Shown in pieces: positions 3,001 through 64,000 of a stretch of DNA of 64,000 nucleotides. The position numbers and the translations under genes were made by a program. Under the pieces are notes generated by a model that worked only from the letters and a program-made list of their open reading frames with translations, searched no databases and was not told where the DNA came from. Within the stretch, counting starts at the first letter, position 1; every line of letters starts with the position of its first letter. Where the stretch lies: NCBI GenBank assembly GCA_003116975.1, contig BGKB01000017.1, forward strand, positions 558,001-622,000, written 5' to 3'. Source of the DNA: Aurantiochytrium sp. KH105. Its lineage: Eukaryota > Sar > Bigyra > Thraustochytrida > Thraustochytriidae.

Positions 3001-3440
3001 AGCTTGAGCGCTGCGTCGTACTGGCCCTGTGAATTTAGTACGCCGGCGATACCAGCTATTGCTGTCGCCGTTTCAGGGTGCCTCGGCCCAAATTTCTCTT
3101 CTCTAATTTCGAGAACTTCCTTGTGCAGCCGGAGCGCTGCGTCATACAAGGCCTGCAAAACGAGCACGTCGGCGATACAGGACATCGTAGTGGCCGTGTC
3201 AGGGTCCTTTAGCCCGAGCTTTTCCTTTCTCATCTCGAGAACCTCGCGGTAAAGCTTGTGCGATGCGAAATACTGACCTTGCGCCATAAGCACGCCGGCA
3301 ATCCGATGCATCGTGGCCGCCACGGAAGGATGCCTCGGCCCAAGCTTGTCCCTTTTAATTTCAAGGGTCTCCTCGTACAGCTCAAGCGCTGCGTCATATT
3401 GGCCCTGGTCCTCCAGCAACCATGCGACATTGTGCATGAC
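1..3440 (-). repeat. 126-bp tandem array coding TPRs (27 units)
   Basis: The motif gctgcgtcgta or gctgcatcgta recurs every 126 bp from about 113 to about 3389 without a change of spacing, giving 27 in-frame units. Neighbouring units are highly similar at nucleotide level, which points to expansion by unequal exchange or conversion. The array continues past the left edge. Confidence 0.9.
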
Positions 3441-4598
3441 CTGAGCAACCTCAGCGGTGGACCCATGGGCAGCCTTTCGGGCTTCGACGATTTGATTCGC
3501 TGTCAGCACAAGCCACTGGCGGACTTTGGCAAGAATGGTGGCGTTAAGGGTCGAGAAACCGCCATCAATGCTCCTCACGGCCTCATTGATCATGTCTCGA
3601 TCCTTTTCCGAATGACACTCGGCATCGGCAAGATCGAAGCCCGCAAGTACTTTCGCTATAGCATCAGGCGATTCATCCGCCATGAGCTGAACGAACTTTT
3701 CATCTTCGCCAGGAGCGAAGATGGGTTCGAGAGGCTTGCCGCATTTGACAGCGCCATAAATTTCCCACACGCACCACATGCGCGTGAGAGGCGTTGGTCT
3801 TTTCCAGCTGTCAAAGAAGATGAGGCGCTCGTCGAAGCGCTCAATGGCAGCATGCAGGCCATGGGTGAGCAGCTCATCGCGCTGCTTCTTGACTTCCTCG
3901 GCGAGGTCACTGTCCTTGTTTGCGAGCTTGGGTTGATTGGCGCAAAAGATGTCGAGCCAGACGTACGTGCGTGTCAGGTCGCGATCCTGTGCGTGGTAGT
4001 GCGCGACGATGGACGCCACGAGGTCCCCAAAGCTGCACTTGCGCGCTTGACTGACAAAGGCGCCGCGAAAGGGGGGGCCGACGCAGGCCTTGTCATCGCT
4101 TTCGTCAAGGAGAAGATCAATGTAAAAGCCGGGGTTTTCCAGATTATCTTTGCACAAGACGACATTTGCGCAAATGTCTTCAATCGTCCACCCCGCTCTG
4201 GGCTTGGCCTTGGCTTGTCGACTGGGCTCGAAGTGAACCCTTCCTTTCGTATATGCAACGCACCCAGTTTTTTTGCCTTTTTCCACGGCCACGGTTTGCC
4301 CTGCCTTGACGACGGTGGTGATTTTTTTGCCTCGAGGGGATCGCGCGACAGCATCCACGTCCTCAAGGAGCTCGTACAGCTGTACGCCAGGCGCAAGGGT
4401 CTCGTCGAGGACGTCCTGCCAGACCTGCTGCAAGGCGGCGACGCTTATGCCGCAGTACCGGACAATGTCATTGCTGAGGTCGTCGTCAACGAAGGACCTG
4501 CTGGAGCTTGCTCTGCGCGCGAGCGCGGTGGACGCCCTGCGCGCGAGGTTGCCCAAGCTTGAGCGCAAGCTTGAGCGCTTCGCGGACGTGCGTGCCAT
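1..4598 (-). CDS. TIR-like domain plus 27 kinesin-light-chain-type TPRs (3' end off window)
   Basis: An open frame runs from an ATG at 4598 (context gccaccATGG, in-frame TGA just upstream) to the left edge, about 1532 codons, so the C-terminus is missing. The N-terminal ~390 residues are non-repetitive. They contain VWLDIFCANQ (about 3960-3930) and LTRMWCVWEIYGA (about 3790-3745), which resemble TIR strand-B and box-3 segments (a W-x-D segment, then WC-x-x-E); the fold assignment is inference. From about 3440 downward come 27 units of exactly 42 residues with the kinesin-light-chain TPR pattern (QAQYDAALELYYEVLEI, KEKLGPRHPSTA). The likely role is a scaffold or sensor with a signalling head. 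The next minus-strand gene upstream is another TIR receptor. A 434-codon plus-strand frame over the same DNA is its antisense shadow. TPR call is firm; function is unknown. Confidence 0.85.
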   Translation of the reverse strand, partial: MARTSAKRSSLRSSLGNLARRASTALARRASSSRSFVDDDLSNDIVRYCGISVAALQQVWQDVLDETLAPGVQLYELLEDVDAVARSPRGKKITTVVKAGQTVAVEKGKKTGCVAYTKGRVHFEPSRQAKAKPRAGWTIEDICANVVLCKDNLENPGFYIDLLLDESDDKACVGPPFRGAFVSQARKCSFGDLVASIVAHYHAQDRDLTRTYVWLDIFCANQPKLANKDSDLAEEVKKQRDELLTHGLHAAIERFDERLIFFDSWKRPTPLTRMWCVWEIYGAVKCGKPLEPIFAPGEDEKFVQLMADESPDAIAKVLAGFDLADAECHSEKDRDMINEAVRSIDGGFSTLNATILAKVRQWLVLTANQIVEARKAAHGSTAEVAQVMHNVAWLLEDQGQYDAALELYEETLEIKRDKLGPRHPSVAATMHRIAGVLMAQGQYFASHKLYREVLEMRKEKLGLKDPDTATTMSCIADVLVLQALYDAALRLHKEVLEIREEKFGPRHPETATAIAGIAGVLNSQGQYDAALKLYQDVLEIRKEKLGPKHPSTATTMSCIADELWTQAQYDAALELYYEVLEIEKEQLGPKHPSTASTISCIAGVLNSQGQYDAALKLYQDVLEIRKEKLGPKHPSTASTISCIAGVLHSQAQYDAALKLYQEVLEIKKEKLGPRHPSTATTMACIAAVLYSQAQYDAALKLYQEVLEIRKEKLGPRHPDTASAMSCIAGVLQLQAQDDAALELYEQVLEIRKEMLGPKHPSTAWAMHKIADMRDSQGQYDAALELHQEVLEIEKESLGPRHPVTASTMNCLAGVLRSQGQYDAALKIFQEVLEIREEKFGPRHPDTATSMSCIAGVLRLQGQYDAALGLFQQVLEIDRENLGPRHPSTAVAMHMIADILNVQGQYDAALDLHQDVLEIQKESLGPRHPATANTMACTACVLHSQGQYDAALELYQQVLEIRKEKLGPRHPGTATTMTDIAGVLHSQGQYDAALELYEQVLEINKEMLGPKHPSTAGAMHSIADMRDLQGQYDAALELHQDVLEIEKEILGPRHPVTANTMNCLARVLRSQGQYDAALKIFQEVLEIRKEKLGPRHICTATTMADIAIVLRSQGQDDAALELYQQVLEIDKEKLGSRHPETATMMHNMAGVLYSQGQYDAALKLYQEVLEIRKEQLGPRHPYTATTMAGIALVLRTQGQYDAALELYYEVLEIRKEKLGPKHVDTATTMSNIAGVLESQAQYDAALELYYEVLEIRKEKLGPTHDSTAAVMYYIAGVLHSQAQYDAALELYYEVLEIEKEKLGPRHPSTAMTIECIAGVLDSQGEYDAALELYYEVLEIRKEKLGPTHDSTAAVMYNIAGVLHSQAQYDAALELYYEVLEIEKEKLGPRHPSTATTMANIAGVLKSQAQYDAALELYYEVLEIQKEKLGPRHPSTATTMANIANVLYLQAQYDAALELYYEVLEIRKEKLGPTHDSTAATMASIAGVLDSQGQYEAAIELDQQVLEIKKEKLGPRHPGTASTMNNMAVVLYRR

Positions 4599-4628
4599 GG
4601 TGGCTGTTCAGGACGATCGGGTTCTGCT

Positions 4629-5728: not shown

Positions 5729-5896
5729 GTTAATGTCGGTCGCCCACCCACGCAGGCATGGCACACGGTAGCGCAAAGCCGCATGGTTAGGTCCCGGGTT
5801 CGATTCCTTGGAGTTAATGTCGGTCGCCCACCCACGCAGGCATGGCACACGGTAGCGCAAAGCCGCATGGTTAGGTCCCGGGTTCGATTCCTTGGA
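5729..5896 (+). repeat. Two identical 84-bp tRNA-like repeat units
   Basis: Units 5729-5812 and 5813-5896 are identical. Each ends with ggttcgattcc, a perfect match to the Pol III B-box / T-loop of a tRNA. About 40 bases upstream is tggcacacggtagcgc, which resembles a D-arm / A-box. The T-stem pairs only with wobbles and no full acceptor stem can be drawn, so this is a tRNA-derived repeat (SINE-head-like), not a functional tRNA. The second unit overlaps the 3' end of the antisense NACHT-WD40 coding region and supplies its stop codon. Confidence 0.7.
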
Positions 5897-8800
5897 CATG
5901 CAAGACGTGTACCATCCCGCTATCGTCGCCAATAACGTAAACACCTCCCTCGCGAGCTGTTCGTGAGATTGCGTGGTCCGCCGTGAAGCCTATGCCTTCG
6001 CTAAGCTTCACATGCGTTCCGCTCTCAACGTTCACCAACGTGTTTGTTCCAGGTGTAGTAGTCGATGCCTCCGCTTCACCAGCGTTGAGTGCCTCGCCCG
6101 TTCGAGCGTTCCAGTAACGAGTTTCATCCCATGACTGTGATACGACTGTGTCGCCCTGTATCGCCACGCTCTTGACCGAACCAGAGTGCCCCTTCAACAC
6201 GTGCTGCTCCTCGCCCGACGTAGCGTTCCAGATGCGCACCGTCTTGTCATAGGACCCACTGACGATGGTGTCGCCTTGTATCGCCACACTCCAGACCGGA
6301 CCAGAGTGCCCCTTCAACACGTGCTGCTCCTCGCCCGACGTAGCGTTCCAGATGCGCACCGTCTCGTCATAGGACCCACTGACGATGGTGTCGCCCTGTA
6401 TCGCCACGCTGGTGACCGAACTAGAGTGCCCCTTCAACACGTGCTGCTCCTCGCCCGACGTAGCGTTCCAGATGCGCACCGTCCTGTCCACGGACCCACT
6501 GACGATGGTGTCGCCCTGTATCGCCACGCTGTTGACGTAATCAGAGTGCCCCTTCAACACGTGCTGCTCCTCGCCCGACGTAGCGTTCCAGATGCGGACC
6601 GTGTTGTCCGTGGACCCACTGACGATGGTGTCGCCCTGTATCGCCACGCTCCAGACTTCATCAGAGTGCCCCTTCAACACGTGCAGCAAGGGGTCGCGGG
6701 GATGAGCAAGGGTGACGCGAATAGGCTCCAGCCATGGCTGATCAGGTGTTTGCAGACTACGTGCCAAGGGATCTTTCGAGTCGTGACCAAGACGCGCCAG
6801 AACTTGCGACGCAAGTTCGTTGGGATCGTAGCTGAGGGCATGCACTGCTTTGCTCAGGAAGCGGGGCGTATCACTTTCGGGCGCAAAGTAGATGTCGAGT
6901 TCGACGCAGTCGCGAATGAGGTTTCCGATTGTGGCGCGCCTTTGCGCTTCATCGTCACCGACAGAAATGGCGCTCTGTACCCATGCAAAGTCATTCAGGA
7001 GCTCGAAAGCCTCAGCGTGCTCGCCGCTCTTGACGAGGTGAAAGACGGCGTGACGGAGCGAGAAAACGTCGTCCCGCGATTTGCTGCAGTAGTCGGCCAA
7101 GGCAGTATGGCCATCTTCAACATCCACGCCAAGATTTCCGCTCAGGTCGTCATCCAGCAGCCAATCTGCCATCCGCTTGTGGATGAGCGCTACACGACCA
7201 TCGCCGCCCTGGTACAAGAGATTACGCGCGTCGCCAACGATCTTTTTCGTCTTCTTCTTGGTTTTGTCAAGAATCACGGTGAGTTGCTCGACGCTCAGCG
7301 GCTCGCGCGCTGCCACGATAGGAGTTAGCAGTGACTGATAAGCATCGTCACCGCCCATCTTATCGCGAAGGCGCTTAAAGTACTCCTCAAACATGCCTCC
7401 AAGCCCGTTGGGAATGGCGTCTTTGTGAGAGATGTCCTGATAGGTCAGCACTCCACCTTGTTTCTCCTCCTTCATCCGGTTCAGGGTCTCGGGAAGGAAG
7501 CTCGCCCAGAGAAAGAGACCTTCGGATCGCTCGGAAAGAATCTTGGCGCAAGAAGCAACGTCTTTTTGCTCCACGGTATCTTTCATGTCGCACAGCAAAT
7601 GCTTGATGTGCATTTCGATGTCGCGAAAGTTCTCTTCGTCCTTGAGCTCCAGCACTTTAGAATCAAGGCTATTGTTGGTGATGCCGCGCTGGATCTCGCC
7701 TTCGGGACGTGTGCTCACAACCAAGCTGAGCCATGAGGGCATCACATCCTTCCACGTACGAATGACCTTTGTCAAGACATCGTCGCTTTTGCTGCACTCG
7801 TCGAGAGCGTCGAGCACGACCACTTGTCGCATCTGATCTGAGCCGAGATTGCTCAAAGGGTCGACGAGAATGGTCTGAAATACATCGGCCAGAGGCTTGT
7901 CGCGGATACCGCCAAAGCTCACGGAGTCAAGCGCATCGGCAAAGCCACGCACGTTCAGGCAGAGCTGCCATGCAATGCTCACAAGAGCCTCTTTCGGCGC
8001 AGCGGTCGTGACTTGATCATGTCGAAAAAAATGATATGCCGCAACAAAAATAGGCTGGCGCTCTCTCTTGCTACGGCGCCACAAGCTACGTACACGTGAC
8101 GACTTTCGGCGCGGCTCGACACGTTCATCAGCCTTGCTCTTTTTGACATCTTCGTCAGTTTTCAGAGCGCCTCCGCGGTGGCAAAGCTCGGCCATGATGA
8201 CGCTTTTGCCGACGCCGCCGTCGCCCACAAGAATGAAGACGGCACTCTGTTTCTTGTTGTACCAGTCGCAAAACTCGTCGATGATCCAGCTTCGCGTGCC
8301 GAGGGTAAAGTTCTCCGCCTTGCCCTTGGCCCATGCCTCTGAGCTGCACGGGTTCAGGCGAGGATAAATGTCGCGCATCAGAGGGGTGAGGTCCGATGAA
8401 GCCTCGGGCGTCGCGATGCGCATGCGAATGGCATTGGCGAGGCGTTCGATCGCCTTGTCCGAAAAACTGCCATTCGAACAATCGGAAAGATCCACCGGTG
8501 CTTGTCTTGTGAGCGCGAGCTGAAATCGCCCAGTCCACCCAGTTGCGGGCTTGGCCATGTCCTCTTCCAGCGCGGCGACCACGATGCGGTCGAATCGCTT
8601 GTTGCCAGCGTATTGGAACTCCTTGAGGCAGTTGTCTGACCGATCACCTTTGTTGATCTTGTCCATGTATCCTTTTGTCGCGAGGACGAGGAATATGGTG
8701 GACGAGTCGATGCCTCTTGCCATGCTTTCATCAGTGCTGCCGGACATTTCCTGTGCGTCGAGCCAGACGTCAATGCCGTGGTCGCGGAGACGCAATGCGA

Positions 8801-9437
8801 GTTCGATGGCCATCTTGTGCACTAACTGATTCTTGCCCCACTCGTGGGACAAAAATGCGTGGAATCTCTTGATACTTGCACTCTCTGTGGCACGCGCTTG
8901 AGCAAATTTGACTTGGCTAATCAGGAAGGCAATGTTGGCCTTTTCAGGTTCGAAGAATTCGACGTACAAATCATTGGGCAAATACCAAGCGATTGCGCCA
9001 TCCCAAGTCTTCGGCTTGGCCATCTTTTTATCGATGAGGATGGGTACAAGCGCGTTCGGGAGGACCCTCGCCACTGCCTCAACGAGCATCCAGTTGCCTT
9101 GGAGTGCCATACTCACGAGCAGAAGAGCGACCGAGGCATTCTTGGCCGCCTCTTCTGCCTCGGCGGCTTTGCTCGCGGTGCGCACGGGCACGCTGAGGTG
9201 GGGCTGAATCGCGTCAACCAGCTGCTCGGCCAAGGACTCGTCGGCGGAATCGTGTACGACGAGGACGGCGACGTCGGCGAGCACCTCAGGGGGGTCAAGA
9301 AGCGCCTCCGCCTGCTCAGACGCGGCGGTATGGAGCTCTGCCTCCGCCTGCGCGGCATCGTCAACCTCGACCTCTGCGTGCGCTCCGCCGACGCGACCTC
9401 CGTTGAAGAACGCAATTAAGCTCTTCACCCTCACCAT
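5871..9437 (-). CDS. TIR-TIR-NACHT-WD40 STAND receptor
   Basis: 1188 residues from ATG 9437 (context aaaccATGG); the frame stays open further upstream but has no earlier ATG that I could find. Order: a degenerate TIR-like segment (about 54-140), a full TIR (about 190-320: FHAFLSHEW, GIDVWLDAQEM, then CLKEF with Glu273 at the NADase glutamate position), NACHT (P-loop GDGGVGKS 405-412; Walker B VVVLDALDEC about 539-548), a helical linker, then five WD40 blades from about residue 940. Architecture matches the fungal HET-E/HNWD class but with TIR as effector. Expected role: ligand on the WD40 propeller drives NACHT oligomerisation and TIR activation, probably cytosolic; this is inference from the family. 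The final ~8 codons and stop derive from a tRNA-like repeat. A 380-codon antisense frame over the WD40 repeats is a shadow. Confidence 0.9.
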   Translation of the reverse strand: MVRVKSLIAFFNGGRVGGAHAEVEVDDAAQAEAELHTAASEQAEALLDPPEVLADVAVLVVHDSADESLAEQLVDAIQPHLSVPVRTASKAAEAEEAAKNASVALLLVSMALQGNWMLVEAVARVLPNALVPILIDKKMAKPKTWDGAIAWYLPNDLYVEFFEPEKANIAFLISQVKFAQARATESASIKRFHAFLSHEWGKNQLVHKMAIELALRLRDHGIDVWLDAQEMSGSTDESMARGIDSSTIFLVLATKGYMDKINKGDRSDNCLKEFQYAGNKRFDRIVVAALEEDMAKPATGWTGRFQLALTRQAPVDLSDCSNGSFSDKAIERLANAIRMRIATPEASSDLTPLMRDIYPRLNPCSSEAWAKGKAENFTLGTRSWIIDEFCDWYNKKQSAVFILVGDGGVGKSVIMAELCHRGGALKTDEDVKKSKADERVEPRRKSSRVRSLWRRSKRERQPIFVAAYHFFRHDQVTTAAPKEALVSIAWQLCLNVRGFADALDSVSFGGIRDKPLADVFQTILVDPLSNLGSDQMRQVVVLDALDECSKSDDVLTKVIRTWKDVMPSWLSLVVSTRPEGEIQRGITNNSLDSKVLELKDEENFRDIEMHIKHLLCDMKDTVEQKDVASCAKILSERSEGLFLWASFLPETLNRMKEEKQGGVLTYQDISHKDAIPNGLGGMFEEYFKRLRDKMGGDDAYQSLLTPIVAAREPLSVEQLTVILDKTKKKTKKIVGDARNLLYQGGDGRVALIHKRMADWLLDDDLSGNLGVDVEDGHTALADYCSKSRDDVFSLRHAVFHLVKSGEHAEAFELLNDFAWVQSAISVGDDEAQRRATIGNLIRDCVELDIYFAPESDTPRFLSKAVHALSYDPNELASQVLARLGHDSKDPLARSLQTPDQPWLEPIRVTLAHPRDPLLHVLKGHSDEVWSVAIQGDTIVSGSTDNTVRIWNATSGEEQHVLKGHSDYVNSVAIQGDTIVSGSVDRTVRIWNATSGEEQHVLKGHSSSVTSVAIQGDTIVSGSYDETVRIWNATSGEEQHVLKGHSGPVWSVAIQGDTIVSGSYDKTVRIWNATSGEEQHVLKGHSGSVKSVAIQGDTVVSQSWDETRYWNARTGEALNAGEAEASTTTPGTNTLVNVESGTHVKLSEGIGFTADHAISRTAREGGVYVIGDDSGMVHVLHVQGIEPGT
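6130..6690 (-). repeat. 120-bp WD40 repeat array, near-identical blades
   Basis: Five units at 120-bp spacing (blocks near 6181, 6301, 6421, 6541, 6661). The core coding VAIQGDT and TVRIWNATSGEEQHVLKGHS is almost invariant in DNA. Differences concentrate in the codons after GHS, the residue after the following V, and the two residues flanking D in SGSxDx. The last blade before the C-terminus is more diverged. Confidence 0.9.
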
Positions 9438-10606
9438 GGTTTCACGGAGACAGGGCACTCGCCGCGGCCGTCTTTGTTCGTTCAGCCGCGCTCCCCTTCT
9501 CGCGCGCGTCTGCCCCGCCCTGAGCGCCGTTCCCCTCGCCCCCGCGGCTGCACGTCCGCGTCCTCGTTCTCCGCCCTCGTGCGGCGAATTGGTTCTGCTG
9601 CTCGCGCTCTGCTCCGCCCTCGGCGGCTGGAGCGAGGAGATCAAAGTTCCAGAATACTCCCTTGTATGGGCCTACCATGTATAAATGTCCCAATGTGGTT
9701 CTGCTGGAGGGGGTTAAACGATAATTATTCGCCGCGCGTGCTGCGCATTTTTTCCGAAGCCCTGCTTCTCTCCCTATAAAATTGGAGGGGCGGGGTGTGT
9801 GGCGTGTGCATGACAGCTCAAGCATGGCTGGCGGCCGTTCTCCGGCGTGTCCAGCGTGCACACGTCGCGCGAGCCGTGCCGTCCGCAGCCTTTCCCACTC
9901 ACTGCATCCGCGAGTGGTGATGGGCCTGAAGGAAAAGGAAAGCGGGCCGGGCTTGGAAGGGGGGAAGGGGGAAAAAGGGATGGCATGACAGTGAGTGAAG
10001 GGGTGAGTGCTGAAGGACGAAAGTGTGTGCTTGCGGTTGCGGACGCTGTCCCTGCCTTTCGAAAAGAGGCGCCTGGCTGCAGCAGCAGCAGGCTGCTGAA
10101 AGTGAGTTGCCAAACGAGCCAGCTGTGCCAATCACGTTGAACGGGCGACCGAGCCTGCCAGCGCTTTCACGATGCGGCTGACGCGCCTATCAGCCAACCA
10201 GCCCAGCCAGATGACGACACTGTATAGACAAACAAACAAACAACCAAACAAACAAACGGTCTATCGGGCGCGCGCCCGCCATGTGTGCTCTGCCTGGGGC
10301 GGCCGGCCAGATTCTTCTCTTTACGATCTCGGTAGAAAGCACTAACTGTAAACCCAAAAGGCGTGAAGCAGCCAGTCCAGCTGTGGAAGCAGGCCGAAGA
10401 CAACTCGCGCTGGAAACTTGGGTATTGCGTTCCGCAGACCGCGGGTCGGGTGTATAGCAGTGTTGCAACGACTGGCTGCCAGTGAAGAGCAGTTATAACT
10501 CACTGGTAGGGCAAATGCTGGCAAAGCAGATTATGCACTTGCAAGCTGTAGTGTTAGTGCCTTCTTTGTGAGTGTCTTTGTTATTGTTTACGAGGATTCT
10601 CTCGAT
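9438..10606. other. Spacer, no gene recognised
   Basis: GC-rich 5' flank of the NACHT-WD40 gene, then low-complexity DNA with a (CAAA)n tract at about 10228-10257 and a diverged dispersed-repeat copy at 10402-10560. The frames here look compositional and match no family I know. Confidence 0.5.
10402..10560. repeat. Third copy of the dispersed ~200-bp repeat
   Basis: Shares ggtattgcgttccgcagacc, gttgcaacgactggctgcca and cttgcaagc with the pair at 4629-4952. It lacks the segment around gactgacagactg. No flanking duplication was identified by eye. Confidence 0.65.
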
Positions 10607-54115: not shown

Positions 54116-57100
54116 TTAACACGCATCAATGCGCGCAATAAGTTCTTCATAAAAAGCTTCAGCCAGGTAATGGCGACGCTGAAACGGCATGGACTCCGTC
54201 TCGCGAAAGAGGTGTTTGGCAGCGTCCGGGGCAGACTTGATGTAATTGGAAATAGTATCGAAGCCGAATCGATCCGGATCGCTCTCGTGCACGAGCAACA
54301 CAGGCTTTTCTTCCTGCAGTGCTGTTTCCAGCTCAATGCGCACGGCGCCCTCAAAAACGGTCTTGGAGAGGAAAAGAAGATAGCACTTTGACGCACGAAT
54401 GCCGCGACGCATAGCGTCCTCTGCCAGATTGCCCTGGCTCTCCTGATCGAGCCAGACCTTGATGCCTCGATTCTTCAGTTTCTCCGCCATGAGGTTGCAT
54501 GCGTCGCCGGCTTCCTTCTGTCGGTGGCTCAAAAAGACGTGGTATTCGAGACCAGCACCCAGCCGTCGAACTGACGCCAGCTCCACATGACCCGTATCGT
54601 GCTCGTCTTCTGTAAGTGAACCGTCCGTGAAAAACGGTTCAAAGTCAGCGACGCGAGCATTGCCCAGGCCCACTGACGCAACGGCGACAGCATTCGCATC
54701 GCGAGACTCGACCAAAGTATCGTACTCGACGCGAACGAGCGGGTTTGGGGGCGACTGCAAATGCAGCTGCCAGGGCAGGTCCTTGAAAACGGCGTCACGA
54801 GCCCCGCGAAACATGCTAATGAGCGTCTTCAGCGTGCTGGCAGGGTTTTCCGTTCCAGGCACCATGATGAGGCGAATCTGATTGCCCGTTTCCTCGAGTG
54901 CGAATTCGGACAAGCCAAAACGAATAATGGCTTGCTGGCCGGCAAGTCGTGGAGTGCCCACACGCGTGCTCGACTCGCCACTACGCTCGGCACATAGTGA
55001 AAGAAGACGCGCAAAGACGCCATCAGGGAGATAGAACTCGGAAAAGTCCAGCACGCAGGTCAACCCATTCGAGAGACTGGCAATGTCGCGTTGTATACCG
55101 CTGTCCCTCGAGTTCTTGAGCAAACTGCTCACGAGGTAAAGTGTCTCATTTCGGCGGTGTCTCGGCAGCGACCTCTCTGGGAACTTCCAGTTGGACGAGA
55201 GCATGGTGTCGCGCATGAACTCCTCGAGGTAGACGACCTCTTCGCCATCCCATAGAAAATCGAGCAAAGTGCGCGTAGCGATGCCCTTGCGACGCAAGAG
55301 CACAAAGTCGTCCTCGAGTTCGAGATCGGCAAGCCTTTCGTCAAAGTAAATCTCCTGCACGTGGATTTCGTCCGCAAGCACTCGTGCCAGCTTGTCCAAG
55401 AGCCATTGCGGGTTCAAGACCACCTTGTCGTGCAAGGTGTCGGTGGCGCGCAGGTGAACGAGCATACCGAGCTCGTGGAAAAACTTGAGAAGCTCGTCTG
55501 TTTGGTCGCCAGCGTGATACTGGTCCGCCAATTCCTGTACCGTTGCGAAGGGCACGTGGTCGTATTCAAGCTTCATGAGGTCGTCGATGACCTTGAGCCA
55601 GCGCAACGAGATCTTTTGCGAGACGGACTCGAGCTTTGATGCGGACTTTTCAACAGCGCGGCGTAGCTCGACGGCACGATCTGCCGCAGAGCTCATGTTG
55701 TCGATCGGAAAAAAGCTCAGTTTTTGCGCTTGGTTTTTGACGAGCTTGACACCACGCAGCGCTTCGAGGGCATCCCGCAGAAGTTTTTCTACAGTCTGCA
55801 GACTGCCACGGTTGGAGGCTTGGTCGTAGTGCGTTCCGACCAAAAGGACAGGGGCCTTGGGCGCGTGCAACCTGACGGAGTTGAGCCAAAAGGACAAATA
55901 CTCCAAAGCTTGATCTTGCTTGGTGAGGAGTTCCTGCATGTCAAAGACGAGCATGAAGATGCCCTCACGCGTGAGGAAAATGTGGTGCAGCGCGTAAAAG
56001 ACCTCCTGACCCGCATAGTCCCAAATCGTAAAGTAGATCTTCTGGCCTGACTGCGTCTTGCCGGCCATGGTCTCGATCTCCGCAATGTCGAACCGCCGCG
56101 CCACCTCGGCCTCAGGCACCAGTTCCACCTGCACCTCTGCAACAAAGGGTTGCACCGCAGAAGAGCGTCGGCGCCCTGAGACGAGATCCGACGCCTTGCG
56201 GCTGATGCGCTTAGGCAGTGATTGCCGCTTCTTGCTCGCCGCTTGCTCCTGCATGCGCAGCGCCGCCACGCGATACGCCTGGCGTTCAAATCCGCTATCA
56301 AGGTCCTCGATCTCATTCCAGGACTCTGCATCGGTGCGCTTGAGCTCGACGCCCACCGTCGAGATGTGCTCCGCCACGGGCTTCATGCCCAGCAGCGAGC
56401 GCACCGTGGACGTCTTGCCGGCGGCGGCCTGGCCGACGACCATGAGCTTGCAGCGGCCCAGCTCCGCGGGGTCCCCGTTCACCAGCGCCGCCTTGAGCGC
56501 CTCCTCCGCCGCCGGAGTAGTCGCGGTGGCGCCGAGCACTCCCTCGATGGGCCGCACGGCCTCCGTGCCGTCCAGCACGCGCGTCGAGGCGCCCGTCTCC
56601 GCGTCCCAGATGCGCACGCTCTGGTCGAAAGACCCGCTCGCGATCTTCGACCCCACGAGAGAGACCGACTGCACCCAGTCCGAGTGTCCCCGCAAGACGT
56701 GCAGCGCGTCTCCGCTGCGCGCGTCCCAGAGTCTGACCGTGTTGTCCCAGGACCCGCTCAGGATGCGGTCTCCCTCGAGCGCGACAGAGAACACCGTGTT
56801 GGTGTGTCCTTCGAGCACGTGCAGGAGCTGGAAGGAAGGCACGGCGTAGACCCTCACCTTGTTGTCGGACCCGCTCACCACGCGCTGCGCGTCGATCGCG
56901 ACCGCGTTGACCACGCGTGTCGCCTCGGTGAGGACGTGGCGTGGGTCGCCGCTGACCCGGTCGAAGACGCGCACGGTGTAGCCGCTCAACCCGGCCACGA
57001 GCAGGTTCTTGTGGGCGGCAACGCTGCGCACGCTCGCTTCGGCGTCGATCCTCAAGGTCTCTCGGCCGCTGATCTTGTCCCAGACGCGGACGGTCTTGTC

Positions 57101-57409
57101 CTCGGATCCGGAGATGATCTCGTTGCCGTCGAAGACGACGCTCAAGACATTGCCGGTGTGGCCCTCCAGGGCGTGCAGGACGGAGGCGGTGGCCAGGTCG
57201 ATCAGAAAGAGGCCGCCTTCTTGAGTCCCCACGGCGGCGAGGTTGCCCTGCACGGCCACGGTGTTGGCCTCTTTGTTATTGCGCGTCTTCATCTCCGAGA
57301 CGAGGGCGCCGTCCTTGCTCCAGGCGCGCAGGAAGCCGTCCCAGCTGGCAGCAAGCACGAGGTCGGCGGACTGCGCGACGCCGAGCACGTAGCCTTGGAT
57401 GCGGCCCAT
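54116..57409 (-). CDS. WD40-Roc-COR-TIR receptor (intronless)
   Basis: 1097 residues from ATG 57409 (gccgccATGGG). A WD40 propeller of about seven blades (1-280; SGSEDKTVRVWD, SGSWDNTVRLWD, SGSFDQSVRIWD) is followed by a Roc GTPase: P-loop GQAAAGKT (326-333), G3 WDYAGQE (about 463-469), G4 GTHYDQ. The COR domain follows (ISLRWLKVIDDL, LNPQWLLDKLARV, YLPDGVFARLL). The TIR is at the C-terminus (about 965-1090: YHVFLSHRQ, IKVWLDQES, then RIELETALQEEKP with a Glu at the NADase position). The core is closely related to the LRR gene 2 kb upstream, but the sensor differs. A ~90-residue basic insert separates Roc G2 from G3. Expected to oligomerise through Roc-COR and signal by TIR; biological trigger unknown. 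Confidence 0.93.
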   Translation of the reverse strand: MGRIQGYVLGVAQSADLVLAASWDGFLRAWSKDGALVSEMKTRNNKEANTVAVQGNLAAVGTQEGGLFLIDLATASVLHALEGHTGNVLSVVFDGNEIISGSEDKTVRVWDKISGRETLRIDAEASVRSVAAHKNLLVAGLSGYTVRVFDRVSGDPRHVLTEATRVVNAVAIDAQRVVSGSDNKVRVYAVPSFQLLHVLEGHTNTVFSVALEGDRILSGSWDNTVRLWDARSGDALHVLRGHSDWVQSVSLVGSKIASGSFDQSVRIWDAETGASTRVLDGTEAVRPIEGVLGATATTPAAEEALKAALVNGDPAELGRCKLMVVGQAAAGKTSTVRSLLGMKPVAEHISTVGVELKRTDAESWNEIEDLDSGFERQAYRVAALRMQEQAASKKRQSLPKRISRKASDLVSGRRRSSAVQPFVAEVQVELVPEAEVARRFDIAEIETMAGKTQSGQKIYFTIWDYAGQEVFYALHHIFLTREGIFMLVFDMQELLTKQDQALEYLSFWLNSVRLHAPKAPVLLVGTHYDQASNRGSLQTVEKLLRDALEALRGVKLVKNQAQKLSFFPIDNMSSAADRAVELRRAVEKSASKLESVSQKISLRWLKVIDDLMKLEYDHVPFATVQELADQYHAGDQTDELLKFFHELGMLVHLRATDTLHDKVVLNPQWLLDKLARVLADEIHVQEIYFDERLADLELEDDFVLLRRKGIATRTLLDFLWDGEEVVYLEEFMRDTMLSSNWKFPERSLPRHRRNETLYLVSSLLKNSRDSGIQRDIASLSNGLTCVLDFSEFYLPDGVFARLLSLCAERSGESSTRVGTPRLAGQQAIIRFGLSEFALEETGNQIRLIMVPGTENPASTLKTLISMFRGARDAVFKDLPWQLHLQSPPNPLVRVEYDTLVESRDANAVAVASVGLGNARVADFEPFFTDGSLTEDEHDTGHVELASVRRLGAGLEYHVFLSHRQKEAGDACNLMAEKLKNRGIKVWLDQESQGNLAEDAMRRGIRASKCYLLFLSKTVFEGAVRIELETALQEEKPVLLVHESDPDRFGFDTISNYIKSAPDAAKHLFRETESMPFQRRHYLAEAFYEELIARIDAC

Positions 57410-57709
57410 GGCGGCAACGGCGGCGAGGGGAGCGAGGGCGGGCGGGCGGGCAAGCGGCGTGAAGAAGCGGCGCGAGCGACTGCGGCTGCGGCGAGAAGGG
57501 CCGAGAAAGAAAGCAGAGAGAGAAAGAGACTCGGGGCGAGGAAAGAAAAGATGGGAGAGAGGGGAGAGAGAGCCTGGGCTGCCTGCTGATGCGATTCCGC
57601 CTTGGCGCGTTCTCCGCGGGGGGCGCGCACGGACGGAGCGTGCCGCGGCGGCGCCCGTGCGCGGGGTCGCGGGAGGGGGGTGCTGGCTTGCGCCTTGCGC
57701 GCCTGCTTG

Positions 57710-57745
<36 letters not shown>

Positions 57746-58234
57746 CCGCGCGGTCAAGCCTTGCGCGCAGGGGCGAAAGGGAGCTTAGGTGTTTGGGCGA
57801 AGGCCGAGCGTGTGCACACGCTGGCACGCGCGGACGGTGCACACGCGCTGGCTGGCTCAGGCTGGCCTGGCTGGCCTGGAGAAGTGCGCAGCCTGCGACC
57901 CACATGCCATCAACGATCATCAACGCGGCCAACAGAAATGCAAGCGAACAACTGTGCGATGTTCGAGATGCCGAAACATTAATCCAGGCTTGACATGAAC
58001 GAAAATAGAACATTCATGGCATGTCTTCTGAACGCAGGCCTAAAATCTCCTGGTGAAAATGACTGTTTCTGATCAGAAGGGGGCATGCATCTCTCACTCT
58101 AGGAGTAATCTAATTCACATTTTCATTCAAACGTTTTCATAGGAGTAGTAGTCAGATGGAACAAGATTGCAAGCAGTCAAATTTCTTCTTGAGATCAGCA
58201 CTTCGAAGTGCATTAGAATTCCACCATTGGCACA
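57410..58234. other. 5' flank of the WD40-Roc-COR-TIR gene
   Basis: GC-rich, with a (CCTG)n tract at 57708-57747. The receptor frame stays open upstream through it but there is no conserved sequence, so I treat it as untranslated. Confidence 0.5.
57708..57747. repeat. (CCTG)n microsatellite
   Basis: About ten uninterrupted cctg units. Confidence 0.95.
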
Positions 58235-59191
58235 TCATGATTTTTTTGGCTTGACATAAAGCTTTGTGACTTGTGCTTGTTGCTTAACGCTCAACAGCTT
58301 GAAGGTCCTACGATCACTCCCTTTTCCTTGATTGAAAAGATTGCAAAACCGAACAAGTAGGGCACATCTTTGCATGAAGGTCCTCCCCTCATCCATCTGT
58401 GCCGGCTTAAGATCTGTTTTCACTTCCGCTGGCGATACATGGATTTCTTCAATGGGCCCTTCTGTTTTCGGACTTCCTCCTCATTGGGCCGCACGGCCTC
58501 CGGGGTCTGAGAAATGTGAGCCAAGGCCTGAGACGTCGTGCATGGCGGGCCCGTCGTCCAGGTTGAAGGCTGAAGGGAGAGGTGTGGCGGTGAGATCAAA
58601 GGCCGAGCCCCAGCCAGAGTTATCGTTGGTGGGATCGCGCGTGGACCTGGAAACGTATGGCGCGTTGAGCGACATGAGCTTGCCGGGGATATCGCTGGGG
58701 AAGATACCATCATGGGGACGAAAGTGCATATTGTCCAGCTCACTCAATGTGTGGCCGTTGCCATGGCCACTATTGCTGCTGCTGCAGCTCCCCGAGCTGG
58801 CGCTTCGAGGGTGCATGCCGAGAACCTCGTTCCAAGACCTTCGTGCCGTCAAGCACGCGCGTCTCTGCGCCCGTCTCCGCGTCCCAGATGCGCACGCTCT
58901 TGTTGCGAGATCCGCTCACGATCTCCGACCCGAAGAGAGAGATCGACTGCACCCAGATCGAGTGTCCTTGCAAGACGCGCAGCGCGTCTCCGCTGCGCGC
59001 GTCCCAGAGTTGTCCCAGGACCCGCTCACGATGCGGTCTCCCTCGAGCGCGACAGAGCGCACCCAGTTGGTGTGTCCTTCGAGCACGTGGACGAGCTCGA
59101 AGGAAGGCACGGCGTAGACCCTCACCTGGTCGTCGTTCGACCCGCTCACCATGCGCTGCGCGTCGATCGCGACCGCGTAGAGGACTTCCAC
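58235..59191 (-). pseudogene. Degenerate WD40 fragment from the neighbouring receptor
   Basis: 58785-59191 (minus) aligns with WD40 blades of the 54116-57409 gene: AVAIDAQRMVSGS, VRVYAVPSFELVHVLEGHTNWVRSVALEGDRIVSGSWDN and later SVRIWDAETGAETRVLDGT. A 10-base deletion relative to the intact copy, in the codons after SWDN (near 59015), shifts the frame. About 330 bases of unrelated but coding-like sequence separate DGT from a remnant PEAVRP (about 58495), which matches EAVRP following the propeller in the intact gene. Downstream to 58235 is a short Lys-rich frame (TEGPIEEIHVSPAEVKTD) ending at a stop. No Roc, COR or TIR sequence is attached. It could alternatively be a spliced small WD40 gene; pseudogene is favoured by the shift. 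Confidence 0.7.
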
Positions 59192-59240
59192 GTCTTTTCT
59201 TTCTCCTCGTTTCTCACTTTTCCCTGCTAGAATGAGTCAT

Positions 59241-62200
59241 CTAGACAGTGGTCGCACATCGTCGAATGAGCTCACGGAAGAAGCTGTCCTCCTCGTACCA
59301 CTTGCGTCGCACAGGGAGCGACTCTTCCTCGATGAGGAGATTTTTGCAAAAGTCAGGCGTTGAAGTGATGTACTCGCTAAAGCTCGTGTAGCTGAGACGG
59401 TGGGTGTCCGGCTCGTGCACCAAGACGATCGGCTTTTTGGCCTCCAAGGCACAGCGCAATTCCGCTTTGACTGCTTTGCTCTTGAAAATGCCCTCGGTAA
59501 GAACGAGAACATAGGTTCGCGTGCGTCGCACGCCATCGAGCATGGCTTCCTGGTTCAATTTGTCTTTGTGAGACTGGTCGAACCAAACCTTGACGCCGCG
59601 GTTCTCAAGCTTCAGTCGCAACGTCTCGGCAAGGTCGCCGCCCGTTGATTGCACATGACTCAAAAACACGTGCGTGTCCTCGTCCGGCCCAAGGGATGAC
59701 ACTGCCTTGGCGCGAGGTACTGCGGGGCCATCCTCATCGGTATCCAGAGCCCCGATCTGCTCGACGAAAAAGGGCTCGAACTCGCTCACCGTAGCCACTC
59801 TTTTGCTGTTACGCCCTCGCAGACGAGCGCGAAACTTGCCTTCGCTTCGAGCCTTGGTAATCTTTGCGTAGGAGACGAGCACACGCGACGTTGGGCTCTC
59901 GAGGAGAAGGTCCCAAGGAAGTCCACGAAAGACGGTTTCTTCCTGCTCGCGGAACATGGACACGAGCAGCTTGATCACCATCGCTGGGCGCTCGGCCTCT
60001 CTGGCGAGACTTACCCGGACGACATTCTCCCTCACGGAAAGGAGAAAGTTGTTGATGCCGAAGGACATCATAGCCTGTTCACTGCCGAGCAATGGGGCCA
60101 TGGGCTCGTCGTCGCCAATCACACTTGGGCGTGCCGCGTACTCTGCACACTGTGCTACAAGCCGATGAAAAACCCCTCGCGGCAAAAAGAATTCGGAAAA
60201 GTCGAGCTCGCACGAGAGACCGGGCTCAAAGTCCTCGGTGTCGACCTCTCGCGAAAAGGTCGACAACAGACCCGAGACGAGAAAGTCTTCATTCGAGCCA
60301 GCCTCATGTGCAAAGTGCCACGGACAGAGAAGCATATTAGCGTCCATGAATTCGAGCAAAAAGTCAACTGCCTCGTTGCCCCACAACCACGCAAGCAGCC
60401 GCCGAGATGCAATGCAGTGATCGCGCAGACGCTCGAAGTCTGACATCAAGCCGCTGGCCTTGAGGTCTGCGTCATAGAAAAACTTCTGCGCATGCAGGTC
60501 ATCCGCGATGACGCGCGCTAGCTTGTCAACAAGCCATTGAGGATCGATGACGATGAAACGCTCCAGCGTTTGCGAGCCGCGAAGGTGCACAACGACACCA
60601 AGACCATGAAAAAAGGAGAGCATGGCGTCGACGTCGCGGCGCGGCAGACCGTATGCTGCGGCCAAGTCAACGATATCCTCAAAGGACATGTACGGAGCGT
60701 GGCTATTCAAGAGATCTTCGTGAACCTTGAGCCATGCAAGCGGAACCCTTTTTTTCACATACGACTGTGCCATCGCAGTCGCTGCAATGAGTGTGCGAAG
60801 ACTTGCGGCTCGATTCGGATCCGTGTCTGTGTTGTCAACGGGGACAAAGATCAAATCGCCCTCGGGCCGTATCAGAGTGCCTCGCGTCCTCTTAAGGCAA
60901 TTGGCCTCGAGAAGCTTCTGGTTGACTTGGCTAACATCGCGCACTTGGTCTTTGTGCGTGCCGACAAGAAGCACGGGAGCGTCAGGCGCATGCATCCTGA
61001 TGCTATTGAACCAGAAATGTAGACTCTTCAGGGCTTCCTCCTGTGTTGCGAGTTTCCCATAGGCTTCTTCCGAAAGAGAGTCCTCGAACATCTCTTTTCC
61101 AACAATCTCTCGCATGTCGAAAACGACGAGGTAGAGGCCTTTGTCCGTGAGGAAGATGTGATGAAGAGCGTAAAACACCTCCTGTCCGCCATAGTCCCAT
61201 ATCGTAAAGCTTACGCGCGTCTCTGATGAAATCGAGCTCTGAAGTAGTAGCTGTTCGTCTTCCGTAATGGAAAACTTGCGAACGACCTCCTCCGAGGAGA
61301 GAAGCGCCTTATGTCGTGGAGAAGCTTCCAAATGTAATGCAGGCTTGGGCTCCGAAGCCACGCCAGGTAGCTCCTGCGAAGACGATGGCAGGGGCGGCGG
61401 GGCCGACGGCACATCGTGTAAAGGTGCATCGAGCTGTTGTGCATCAGACATGTCTGCAAGCTCGCGCAAACGGCGAGCAGCAGCAAAACGCACCTGCGCG
61501 GAAAATTCACCTTGGTCTGACGCTACTTCTCTCCAGTCGTGCGCCCTCGTCCGATGAACATCGGCAACTTCGGTGGATCGATGTTCGTGAATCGGCGATT
61601 GGCCCAACAGAGACCGAACCGTCGAAGTCTTCCCTGCGGCGCCGCGGCCAACAATCATAAGTTTGGCTCGACCCCAGGGATGGGCGTCGCCGTGAGAGAT
61701 GACCGCATGGACAGCGTCAAGCCATGGAGCATCATCTTCTGTGGAACCATAATGTTGGAGACGACCTGCTCGTGCTTTGTTCTTTCCTAGAATGAACTTG
61801 ATCTTGTCCACGGCATCGAGCAGCGTCATGCGAAAGTTGCTGGCCAGACTGCGATATCAAATTTGCGTGAGTACACGATTTCGCAAACCTTTCTTGGTTG
61901 CAAGACAGCGCAACGTACTCTAGTTTTCGTAGCGAGCGAGTTTTTTCGCACGATTTGGCGAGAGCGCTGACGCCTTCATCACCAATGTCATTGTTACGAA
62001 GACTGTGCAAAGAGAAGGAGTTGTGTTTTCAAAGTGAGCATATGTTTCATCTTCCCCGTGTATCGCGTGCGCCAACGTACGAAAGTTTTTGCAGGGTCGA
62101 GTTGCATGCCAGCGCGTCGGCCATGGCCTTGGATCCTGTGTCGCCGATCTTGTTGTATGCAAGCCTGTACCGGGAACGTGAGTTAGCACGCCATATGATT

Positions 62201-63706
62201 CGAGCGGTTCGCTTTAAAAAAATTCGAACGTACCCGAGGCTCTGCAAGGTTGAATTGGCTTTCAAGCCGTTCGCCAGAGCCGCCGTGCCCTCGTCGCCAA
62301 TCTCATTGACCCATAGACTAATTTACGATCAAACGCGAGAGAGAGAAAAGCCAAGCCACTAAATCTGTGAGTGTCCTTTCTGTCCAGTGGAGATAATCGT
62401 CAATCGACCACATGGAAACGTACTCGAGAGCACATAGCCCCGTGTTCTGTGCAAGAGCCTCTCCAAGGGCTCTGCTGCCCTTGACGTGAATGTCGTTTCG
62501 GCTGAGACTAGGCAGAGCATCACGTCAGCCCAAAATACGTTCCCTTTTCCTTTGCTCGCTCGTCGACTTACTTGAGTTTACGTAAATGTGAGTTGGACTC
62601 GAGTCCTCGCGCAAGGGCGCATGCTCCGTCGTCAGAAACATGGTTGCCTCCGAGACTGCTCTGACAAGTTAGTCTTGTGACACGTTCTTGCTGCGCGATA
62701 ATTCCAGCAAAAGAAAAACCAGAAAAACAAGAAGAACAAGGAAAACGTACTCGAGCTTTTCGAGTTGCGAGTCGTGGCCGAGAACCACAGCCAGAGCCTC
62801 TGCGCCAGCACTTCCAACTCGGTTGTGCTGAAGACTGTAAAGGCAACAAACATGTGAGTCGGCAAGACCAAGAGCGCACGCAGGAAAAAAGTTTGACACG
62901 TACTCGAGTTCTTTCAACGCGGTATTTTGTTGAAGGGCCGCGGCTAGCGCTGCAGCGCCTACATCTGAAATTAGATTATTTTGCAGACTGTAATGTTGCG
63001 GAATCAAGCTTGTCATGTCAGTCGTGCAGATTACACAACCATCAGCCGAGTCAAAAACGTACTAGAGCGTGCGAAGGTGGTTATTTGCAAGAAGCGCATG
63101 CGAAAGTGCCCGCGCTCCTTCGTCGCCAATGTTCGTGCTGCTAAGGCTTTGTTTGCGCAACAACCAACAACAACAAAAATTAAAAACGTCAGCGTTTCGG
63201 CTCACAATTCTTGCTGCTGCTGCCAGCAGTGGCAGGCACGTACTCTAAATAAGTTAGCGTAGCATTTTGCTTCAAGGCGAAGGCAAGAGCCTTTGCGCCC
63301 TCGTCTCCGACGCTGTTGGCTCGAAGACTACAACATTAACGTTGTACAAGCGGATGAATGAGTGGATGGATGCCAGTGGATGGATGGATCAACGAACCAG
63401 TTAGCTTCAAGCGAACGAGCAAAGATGATGAAAGTTGCAGTTCGTCAACGTACTCGAGAGTGAGCAGCATGGATTTTTCTGCCAGTGCCGCCGCAAGCTC
63501 CTTGGTTGCCTCTGGACCAACATTCCTGTCAAATAGGCTGGGAGCGCATAAACGAAGTTCAGACATCGTGAGTCGATAATGCTCTCGCGCCTCCATGTAC
63601 ACATGGCGCCAGAATGTTCCTGCAGAGCAACCTACCTAATCTTGGTCTCTCCGTTGGCCATGTCCTCGACCGCCGAGGCCACGTCGTCCGCCTTCACCCA
63701 CGCCAT
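59241..63706 (-). CDS. LRR-Roc-COR-TIR receptor, 12 exons (one exon per LRR)
   Basis: Spliced model on the minus strand: exon 1 63706-63636; LRR exons 63537-63454, 63327-63244, 63146-63063, 62987-62904, 62834-62751, 62655-62572, 62507-62424, 62317-62234, 62164-62081, 62002-61919; last exon 61848-59241. Lengths sum to 3519 nt, giving 1172 residues. Introns are 64-126 nt, GT-AG, mostly gtacgt donors. Each LRR is 28 residues of the RI/NLR type (LxxNxIGDxGAxALAxxLxxNxxLxxLD). Then Roc (P-loop GRGAAGKT 371-378; WDYGGQE; GTHKDQ), COR (WLKVHEDL, DPQWLVDKLARV, FLPRGVFHRL) and a C-terminal TIR (HVFLSHVQS, VKVWFDQS, KAELRCALEAKKP). Paralogue of the WD40-Roc-COR-TIR gene. Confidence 0.92.
61919..63537 (-). 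repeat. Ten tandem 84-nt LRR exons with short introns
   Basis: Every unit is exactly 84 nt and phase 2 at both ends. The codon split by the intron is the Asp (GA|T or GA|C) or an equivalent residue of the LD step at the LRR boundary in most units. The units differ clearly in sequence, so the duplication is older than that of the WD40 blades at 6130-6690. Confidence 0.93.
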
Positions 63707-64000
63707 GAGCCTCGTTCGCGAGTCCGCGAAAGCGCGCGAAAGCGACTCTTGCGGTGCAGAGCCGCGCTGTCCCAGAGGCCCACCCGCAAACAAGCCCGGC
63801 CGCGGAGCCTGATCCCGCGCGCCGCGATGCCGCTCAGCGGCCCCTCGTGCCGCCCGGGCCCGCCGCCGCCGCGTCGGCCCCGGAGAGCGCGCGAATCGTC
63901 CCCTCCAGTGCCGTCCCGACTTGGTGAGTTGGTTTGCTCTTCGTACGTGCAGTCGGAGAGACCTCTCTGCGAAACCCCCGAAACCGTAACGGCCGCACGC
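63707..64000. promoter_or_regulatory. 5' flank of the LRR-Roc-COR-TIR gene
   Basis: GC-rich, no TATA box seen. A plus-strand ATG at 63829 opens a Pro/Arg-rich frame to the window edge; it could be a divergent gene's start, but composition alone explains it. Confidence 0.4.

Follow-up and report, generated by a model that had tools for sequence, protein, structure and literature searches.

A thraustochytrid LRR-Roc-COR-TIR gene with one leucine-rich repeat per predicted phase-2 exon

Gene structure and domain organization

The locus examined lies on the minus strand of a 64,000 nucleotide (nt) stretch of contig BGKB01000017.1 (assembly GCA_003116975.1) from Aurantiochytrium sp. KH105. The whole of this stretch, positions 558,001 to 622,000 of the contig, is referred to as the window and all coordinates are given within it. 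The locus was assigned, with a probability of about 0.8, as the gene of an intracellular thraustochytrid LRR-Roc-COR-TIR receptor whose ten leucine-rich repeats (LRRs) are of the ribonuclease-inhibitor type (RI-type) and are encoded on symmetric phase-2 exons. Base-by-base rebuilding gave a 12-exon gene running from 63706 to 59241, consisting of a 71 nt exon, ten LRR exons of 84 nt and a 2,608 nt exon for Roc, COR and TIR. The joined coding sequence (CDS) of 3,519 nt encodes 1,172 amino acids with zero internal stops. An earlier note on this DNA had proposed ten same-phase 84 nt exons, one per LRR, continuing in frame into an intact Roc-COR-TIR exon with a total divisible by three, and the full rebuild agrees with this.

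The first exon (63636..63706) starts at 63706, encodes a short N-terminal cap and ends in phase 2 at a GTAGGT donor. The start codon is likely rather than proven, because the frame upstream stays open to the window edge; a comparable first exon was recognized by eye ahead of the LRR exon of the paralogous locus L038. Each LRR exon encodes a single 28-residue RI-type repeat, and both the rebuild and a repeat profile placed these exons at 63454..63537 (LRR exon 1, phase 2-2), 63244..63327 (LRR exon 2), 63063..63146 (LRR exon 3), 62904..62987 (LRR exon 4), 62751..62834 (LRR exon 5), 62572..62655 (LRR exon 6, donor GTAAGT), 62424..62507 (LRR exon 7), 62234..62317 (LRR exon 8), 62081..62164 (LRR exon 9) and 61919..62002 (LRR exon 10).

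The last exon (59241..61848, including the stop codon) was assigned from Pfam and fold matches and contains a post-LRR linker, the Roc GTPase, COR and TIR. Domain coordinates within this core were computed from core residue numbers, with residue 1 at 61856. Pfam matches were obtained for Roc at 60948..61226 (62.5 bits, cut-off 27), for COR-A at 60492..60743 (53.8 bits, cut-off 35.3) and for TIR_2 at 59412..59669 (40.6 bits, cut-off 28), all on the minus strand. The Roc match contains the sequence DYGGQ, while the P-loop was located by alignment upstream of the matched stretch, at 61623-61649; the P-loop and DxGGQ motifs are both conserved across a 30-row alignment. COR directly follows Roc and gave fold matches to LRRK2 and bacterial Roco, and a TIR fold was identified by fold matches as well as by TIR_2. 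Glu799 of the TIR domain lines up with a glutamate in the TIR-1 protein of the worm, and 26 of the 28 rows without a gap at this position share it. The Pfam scan of the core returned only Roc, COR-A, TIR_2 and Ras, with no NACHT NTPase, and that of the LRR part returned LRR families only.

Splice sites and repeat profile

All 11 introns are in phase 2 and are 64-126 nt long. The donors are GTACGT (9/11), GTAAGT (1/11) and GTAGGT (1/11), and all 11 acceptors end in AG, as the earlier note had described. Five of the 11 intron lengths are divisible by three, and retention would introduce an in-frame stop in 8/11 introns when the true exon ends are used. The split codon was said to be Asp in most units, which holds by a narrow margin (exit of 6/10 LRR exons); between the LRR exons of seven family genes the split codons include Asp in 12/40 and Asn in 11/40 cases. 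The LRR-exon donors of these seven genes are GTACGT in 27/47, GTAAGT in 16/47 and others in 4/47 cases, the commonest donor being GTACGT and not GTAAGT.

A family repeat profile was run over the minus strand from 59001 to 64000 with splice sites not required. It returned exactly 10 blocks, each flanked by AG and GT precisely where these were expected (10/10); the profile was trained only on other family genes, the training repeats themselves having been collected under an AG/GT condition. A repeat scan of the opposite strand in 22 sequences gave zero LRR matches. On the evidence of the DNA, the predicted exon-intron model of the earlier note was confirmed.

Comparison of second copies

The assembly comprises 76.0 Mb in 367 contigs and contains near-identical second copies of the LRR-ROCO genes, designated C17/C36 (the window gene and its partner), C49/C90, C22/C12, C13/C24 and three tandem genes on C138/C69. 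Synonymous differences between copies amount to 3-16% for the LRR exons and to 4-11% for the cores, and the paired copies would appear to be two haplotypes or subgenomes. The number and lengths of the LRR exons agree in all seven copy pairs, whereas the introns lying between these exons are of unequal length in 18 of 40 cases. Between the window gene and the C36 copy, 34 gapped columns fall within 955 nt of intron and none within 911 nt of exon; identity is 96.0% for exons and 93.5% for introns. Of the sequence evidence for the predicted exons, this copy-pair comparison provides the strongest support. The C36 copy (L002) shifts frame at core residues ~608-623, which reflects either damage to this allele or a fault in the assembly.

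The ROCO family of the genome

A search of the genome with the core protein gave 59 matches, corresponding to at least 52 ROCO loci after merging of 7 partial rows, with the two members of every pair included. The figure is a minimum, because the WD40-bearing sister gene within the window is itself absent from the listing. Thirty loci were fetched with up to 1,500 nt on each side, nine of which were extended further upstream. The earlier note had held that homologues with uninterrupted LRRs would refute its model; when these were sought, 18 of the 22 nearest loci proved to have one or more LRR blocks bordered on either side by splice sites, compared to none of the eight distant loci (L023-L030). 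With one member taken from each of the seven pairs, 47 LRR exons were obtained, all in phase 2, of which 43 are 84 nt, two 87 nt and two 81 nt long. The arrays contain ten (C17), seven (C49, C22 and C138a), six (C138b), at least five (C138c) and five (C13) LRR exons; the count for C138c is a minimum because a weak first LRR exon may have been missed. Another paralogue group, represented by L034 (C158) and L038 (C166), has a single LRR exon. The LRR of L034 contains an in-frame stop, and the introns of L038 contain long CTTT-type simple repeats.

In the tree the 22 LRR-type rows and a single environmental protein form one group (97/94), and a separate clade (100/100) unites the WD40 rows with two proteins of Hondaea. 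C13/C24 branches outside the other 20 LRR-type rows of the genome (100/99). Because this outermost pair has five LRR exons, the layout of one exon per LRR is old within the subfamily, and the sequences compared show that this ROCO-TIR subfamily has long retained the predicted arrangement.

Proposed function and points against it

The LRR arc of the receptor would bind or guard a target, and target binding would release the Roc GTPase switch. Roc-COR would then alter its dimer state and bring TIR domains together, and TIR would signal as an NAD-cleaving or scaffolding element. With this exon layout, frame and fold would survive the gain, loss or skipping of whole repeats.

Several observations weigh against this reading of the locus. 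Four of the 22 nearest loci (L006, L008, L011 and L012) have no LRR block in the fetched sequence, although for L006 and L011 the contig ends less than 300 nt upstream. The LRR block of L005 holds an in-frame stop. The annotated Hondaea models P0001, P0003 and P0004 omit most LRR exons and so depart from one exon per LRR. Between the window gene and the C36 copy the exons exceed the introns in conservation by no more than a modest margin, and it is on length and gaps that the argument depends. The ligand, the GTPase switching and the TIR activity of the putative receptor are drawn from family knowledge, and Glu799 is presumed to be catalytic by analogy with work on SARM1 and plant TIR proteins.

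Comparison with known systems

Human NOD and NLRC proteins contain a NACHT NTPase and C-terminal LRRs. The window gene differs in having a Roc-COR GTPase, N-terminal LRRs and TIR. A paper on NLRP3 splicing (PMC6642158) reports that each LRR of 28 residues has its own exon in most human NOD and NLRC genes, which bears out the suggestion of the earlier note that vertebrate NLR genes use LRR exons of about 84 nt. These genes resemble the window gene in having one RI-type repeat per frame-preserving exon, with a fixed exon border within the repeat. The order LRR-Roc-COR and the Roc-COR fold are shared with the Roco protein of C. tepidum (6hlu) and with LRRK1 and LRRK2, but in the latter two COR is followed by a kinase where the window gene has TIR.

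A further parallel is found in brown algae. Teng 2024 (PMC11378527), which credits Zambounis 2012 for the ROCO genes of Ectocarpus, describes 111 brown-algal ROCO genes that, outside the small groups 3 and 4, encode one LRR of 23 residues per 72-bp phase-2 exon. Like the window gene, these stramenopile genes form a large family with N-terminal LRRs on a Roc core and one LRR per phase-2 exon. They differ in their 72-bp exons, compared to the RI-type exons here (84 nt in 43/47, with two of 87 and two of 81), and in domain content: LRR-ROC-COR is the sole domain structure given in that text, whereas the thraustochytrid gene continues into a C-terminal TIR domain. Positive selection was reported for the brown-algal genes from a codon-model site test, and alternative splicing was shown for example genes; pooled difference counts indicate purifying selection between the copies of the present genes.

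The earlier note had called the exon design a parallel solution in a distant lineage. The likeness to vertebrates stands, but the parallel is not the first of its kind, because the arrangement was already published for ROCO genes of brown algae, which are also stramenopiles (PMC11378527). With the principle thus known twice, it is the combination that is new here: the lineage (a stramenopile that is unicellular and yet has many ROCO genes), the 84 nt RI-type exons on a ROCO gene, the TIR end and the contrast with uninterrupted WD40 sisters. No report on thraustochytrid ROCO genes or LRR exons was seen by title or start of abstract among the matches listed, which does not demonstrate absence from print.

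At clearly less than even odds, these genes would belong to a large ROCO-TIR family in which the RI-type LRR sensor of one branch is modular in its splicing (84 nt, phase 2) and is varied by exon skipping, the exon design being convergent or co-descended with that of vertebrate NOD/NLRC and brown-algal ROCO genes, next to a sister branch with an uninterrupted WD40 sensor on the same kind of core. They provide a third setting, here a unicellular marine protist, for immune-type LRR receptors with one repeat per symmetric exon. The same brown-algal source gives no more than four ROCO copies for each surveyed SAR species outside brown algae and ties the brown-algal expansion to multicellularity. 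The former limit does not extend to this genome, and since at least 52 loci occur in one assembly the relation between ROCO expansion and multicellularity needs another look. The occurrence of modular LRR and uninterrupted WD40 sensors on like cores is a natural contrast that allows the effect of exon modularity on evolvability and splicing to be tested.

Origin and use of the exon layout

A serious candidate, though at somewhat less than even odds, is that the introns came with an inherited LRR exon module and serve no purpose today; the WD40 sisters and other LRR genes would have lost such introns or never had them. When the LRR part was compared with its own genome, many other LRR genes were matched, and the 20 best rows each spanned at least 162 query residues free of stops, none of them in a listed ROCO locus. 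Because these rows are uninterrupted, the closest other LRRs are not encoded one exon per repeat, and an LRR-only exon reservoir outside ROCO genes, as reported for kelp, was not present among the 20 best rows. The copies without change in exon number also fit such an inheritance. On the other hand, lower rows outside the ROCO loci that contain stops (C54, C117, C16, C87 and C197) may be interrupted LRR genes. That each gene has kept 5 to 10 short introns, with all exons divisible by three and in phase 2, suggests constraint, although repeat homology alone would produce the same pattern.

A further possibility, held with considerable doubt, is that the symmetric exons are alternatively spliced today to give many sensor isoforms, as in Ectocarpus ROCO genes and human NLRP3. 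Every LRR exon is frame-neutral, and precedents for splicing are described in the brown-algal and human papers (PMC11378527, PMC6642158). The nearest named proteins to the window gene are those of Hondaea fermentalgiana, where P0001 is 99.3% identical to L004 over 854 residues, P0003 is 99.2% identical to L009 over 654 residues and P0004 is 98.8% identical to L022 over 823 residues. The thraustochytrid examined here falls within this species or very close to it. Exact whole-exon skips at the predicted sites were found in P0003 (LRR exon 3 to 6) and P0004 (2 to 4). These skips belong to annotated models, however, and may come from gene prediction rather than RNA. P0001 uses one whole LRR exon plus pieces of others and, because of these partial pieces, looks like a poor prediction. 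The Hondaea models that drop LRR exons may be either isoforms or poor predictions. No close copy of the window gene itself was present among the returned matches, the best being 61% identical; P0028, P0030 and P0033 represent another Hondaea LRR-ROCO type.

It is improbable that the array is hypervariable through exchange or duplication of exon copies among alleles and paralogues, with diversifying selection acting in the way claimed for brown-algal genes. LRR exon number does differ among paralogues (1, 5, 6, 7 and 10). In the tandem trio on C138 (7, 5 and 6 exons), one exon has no counterpart when the seven- and six-exon genes are matched by position. In single pairs the ratio of nonsynonymous to synonymous differences (pN/pS) ranges from 0.05 to 0.53 for the LRR part and from 0.04 to 0.36 for the core; it is 0.36 and 0.20, respectively, in the window pair and 0.53 and 0.26 in one C138 pair. 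Against this, exon number and length are equal in 7/7 copy pairs, and pooled pN/pS over these pairs is 0.19 for both the LRR part and the core (Fisher P 0.75). At the five concave-face positions of each repeat pN/pS is 0.09, a value that speaks against diversifying selection there but comes from just 4 nonsynonymous differences, and the comparison of exposed with other LRR positions gave P 0.12. The LRR exons are under the same constraint as the core, and the pooled counts show no diversifying selection, even though the values of individual pairs are widely scattered.

In the 12 arrays compared, the two most similar LRR exons of a gene are 48-68% identical, so that no recent exon duplication is seen, and direct repeats of 30 nt or more are absent between 60500 and 64000; recent tandem exon duplication was rejected on both grounds. 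Of the 21 gene pairs, only 5 had an exon order that aligned better than shuffled orders (at most 10 of 200 shuffles), and three of these 5 lie within the C138 trio, a result that neither demonstrates exon shuffling between subfamilies nor speaks against it for older dates. Change in repeat number is visible between paralogues and not between two copies in one genome. The earlier note had described a sensor of variable length with freely addable exons. Variation in length holds between paralogues, but the equal copy pairs, the low identity within genes and the shared pN/pS give no support to free variation at present. Its reading is thus partly supported, the structure being right and the dynamic half unsupported by the DNA.

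That the locus is an interrupted pseudogene misread as an intron-bearing gene is very unlikely: although the core of the C36 partner loses its frame and the single-LRR paralogue L034 has an in-frame stop, the window copy retains an intact CDS of 3,519 nt, and both LRR part and core are under purifying constraint over seven pairs.

Neighbouring genes

A sister gene encoding WD40-Roc-COR-TIR in one uninterrupted frame lies in tandem with the LRR-ROCO gene at 54119..57784 on the minus strand, as identified from frames, Pfam and the tree. The two genes are alike in their cores, which are 39% identical, and differ in the sensor, so that two different sensors on one kind of core lie side by side in the window. 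A WD40 fragment is located just 3' of the LRR-ROCO gene at 58838..59181 on the minus strand, with 87% DNA identity to 56560-56910 of the sister gene. Similar sequence is present in the C36 copy (L002), and the fragment matches all eight of the distant loci L023-L030, which carry WD40 sequence and have open frames of 1,030-1,293 aa. Many other genes of the window are long single frames. One of these, at 5874-9671 on the minus strand, is NLR-like, with TIR, an NPHP3_N-type NTPase and WD40 repeats, and a 1,535 aa frame full of TPR repeats at 3-4607 on the minus strand runs off the window.

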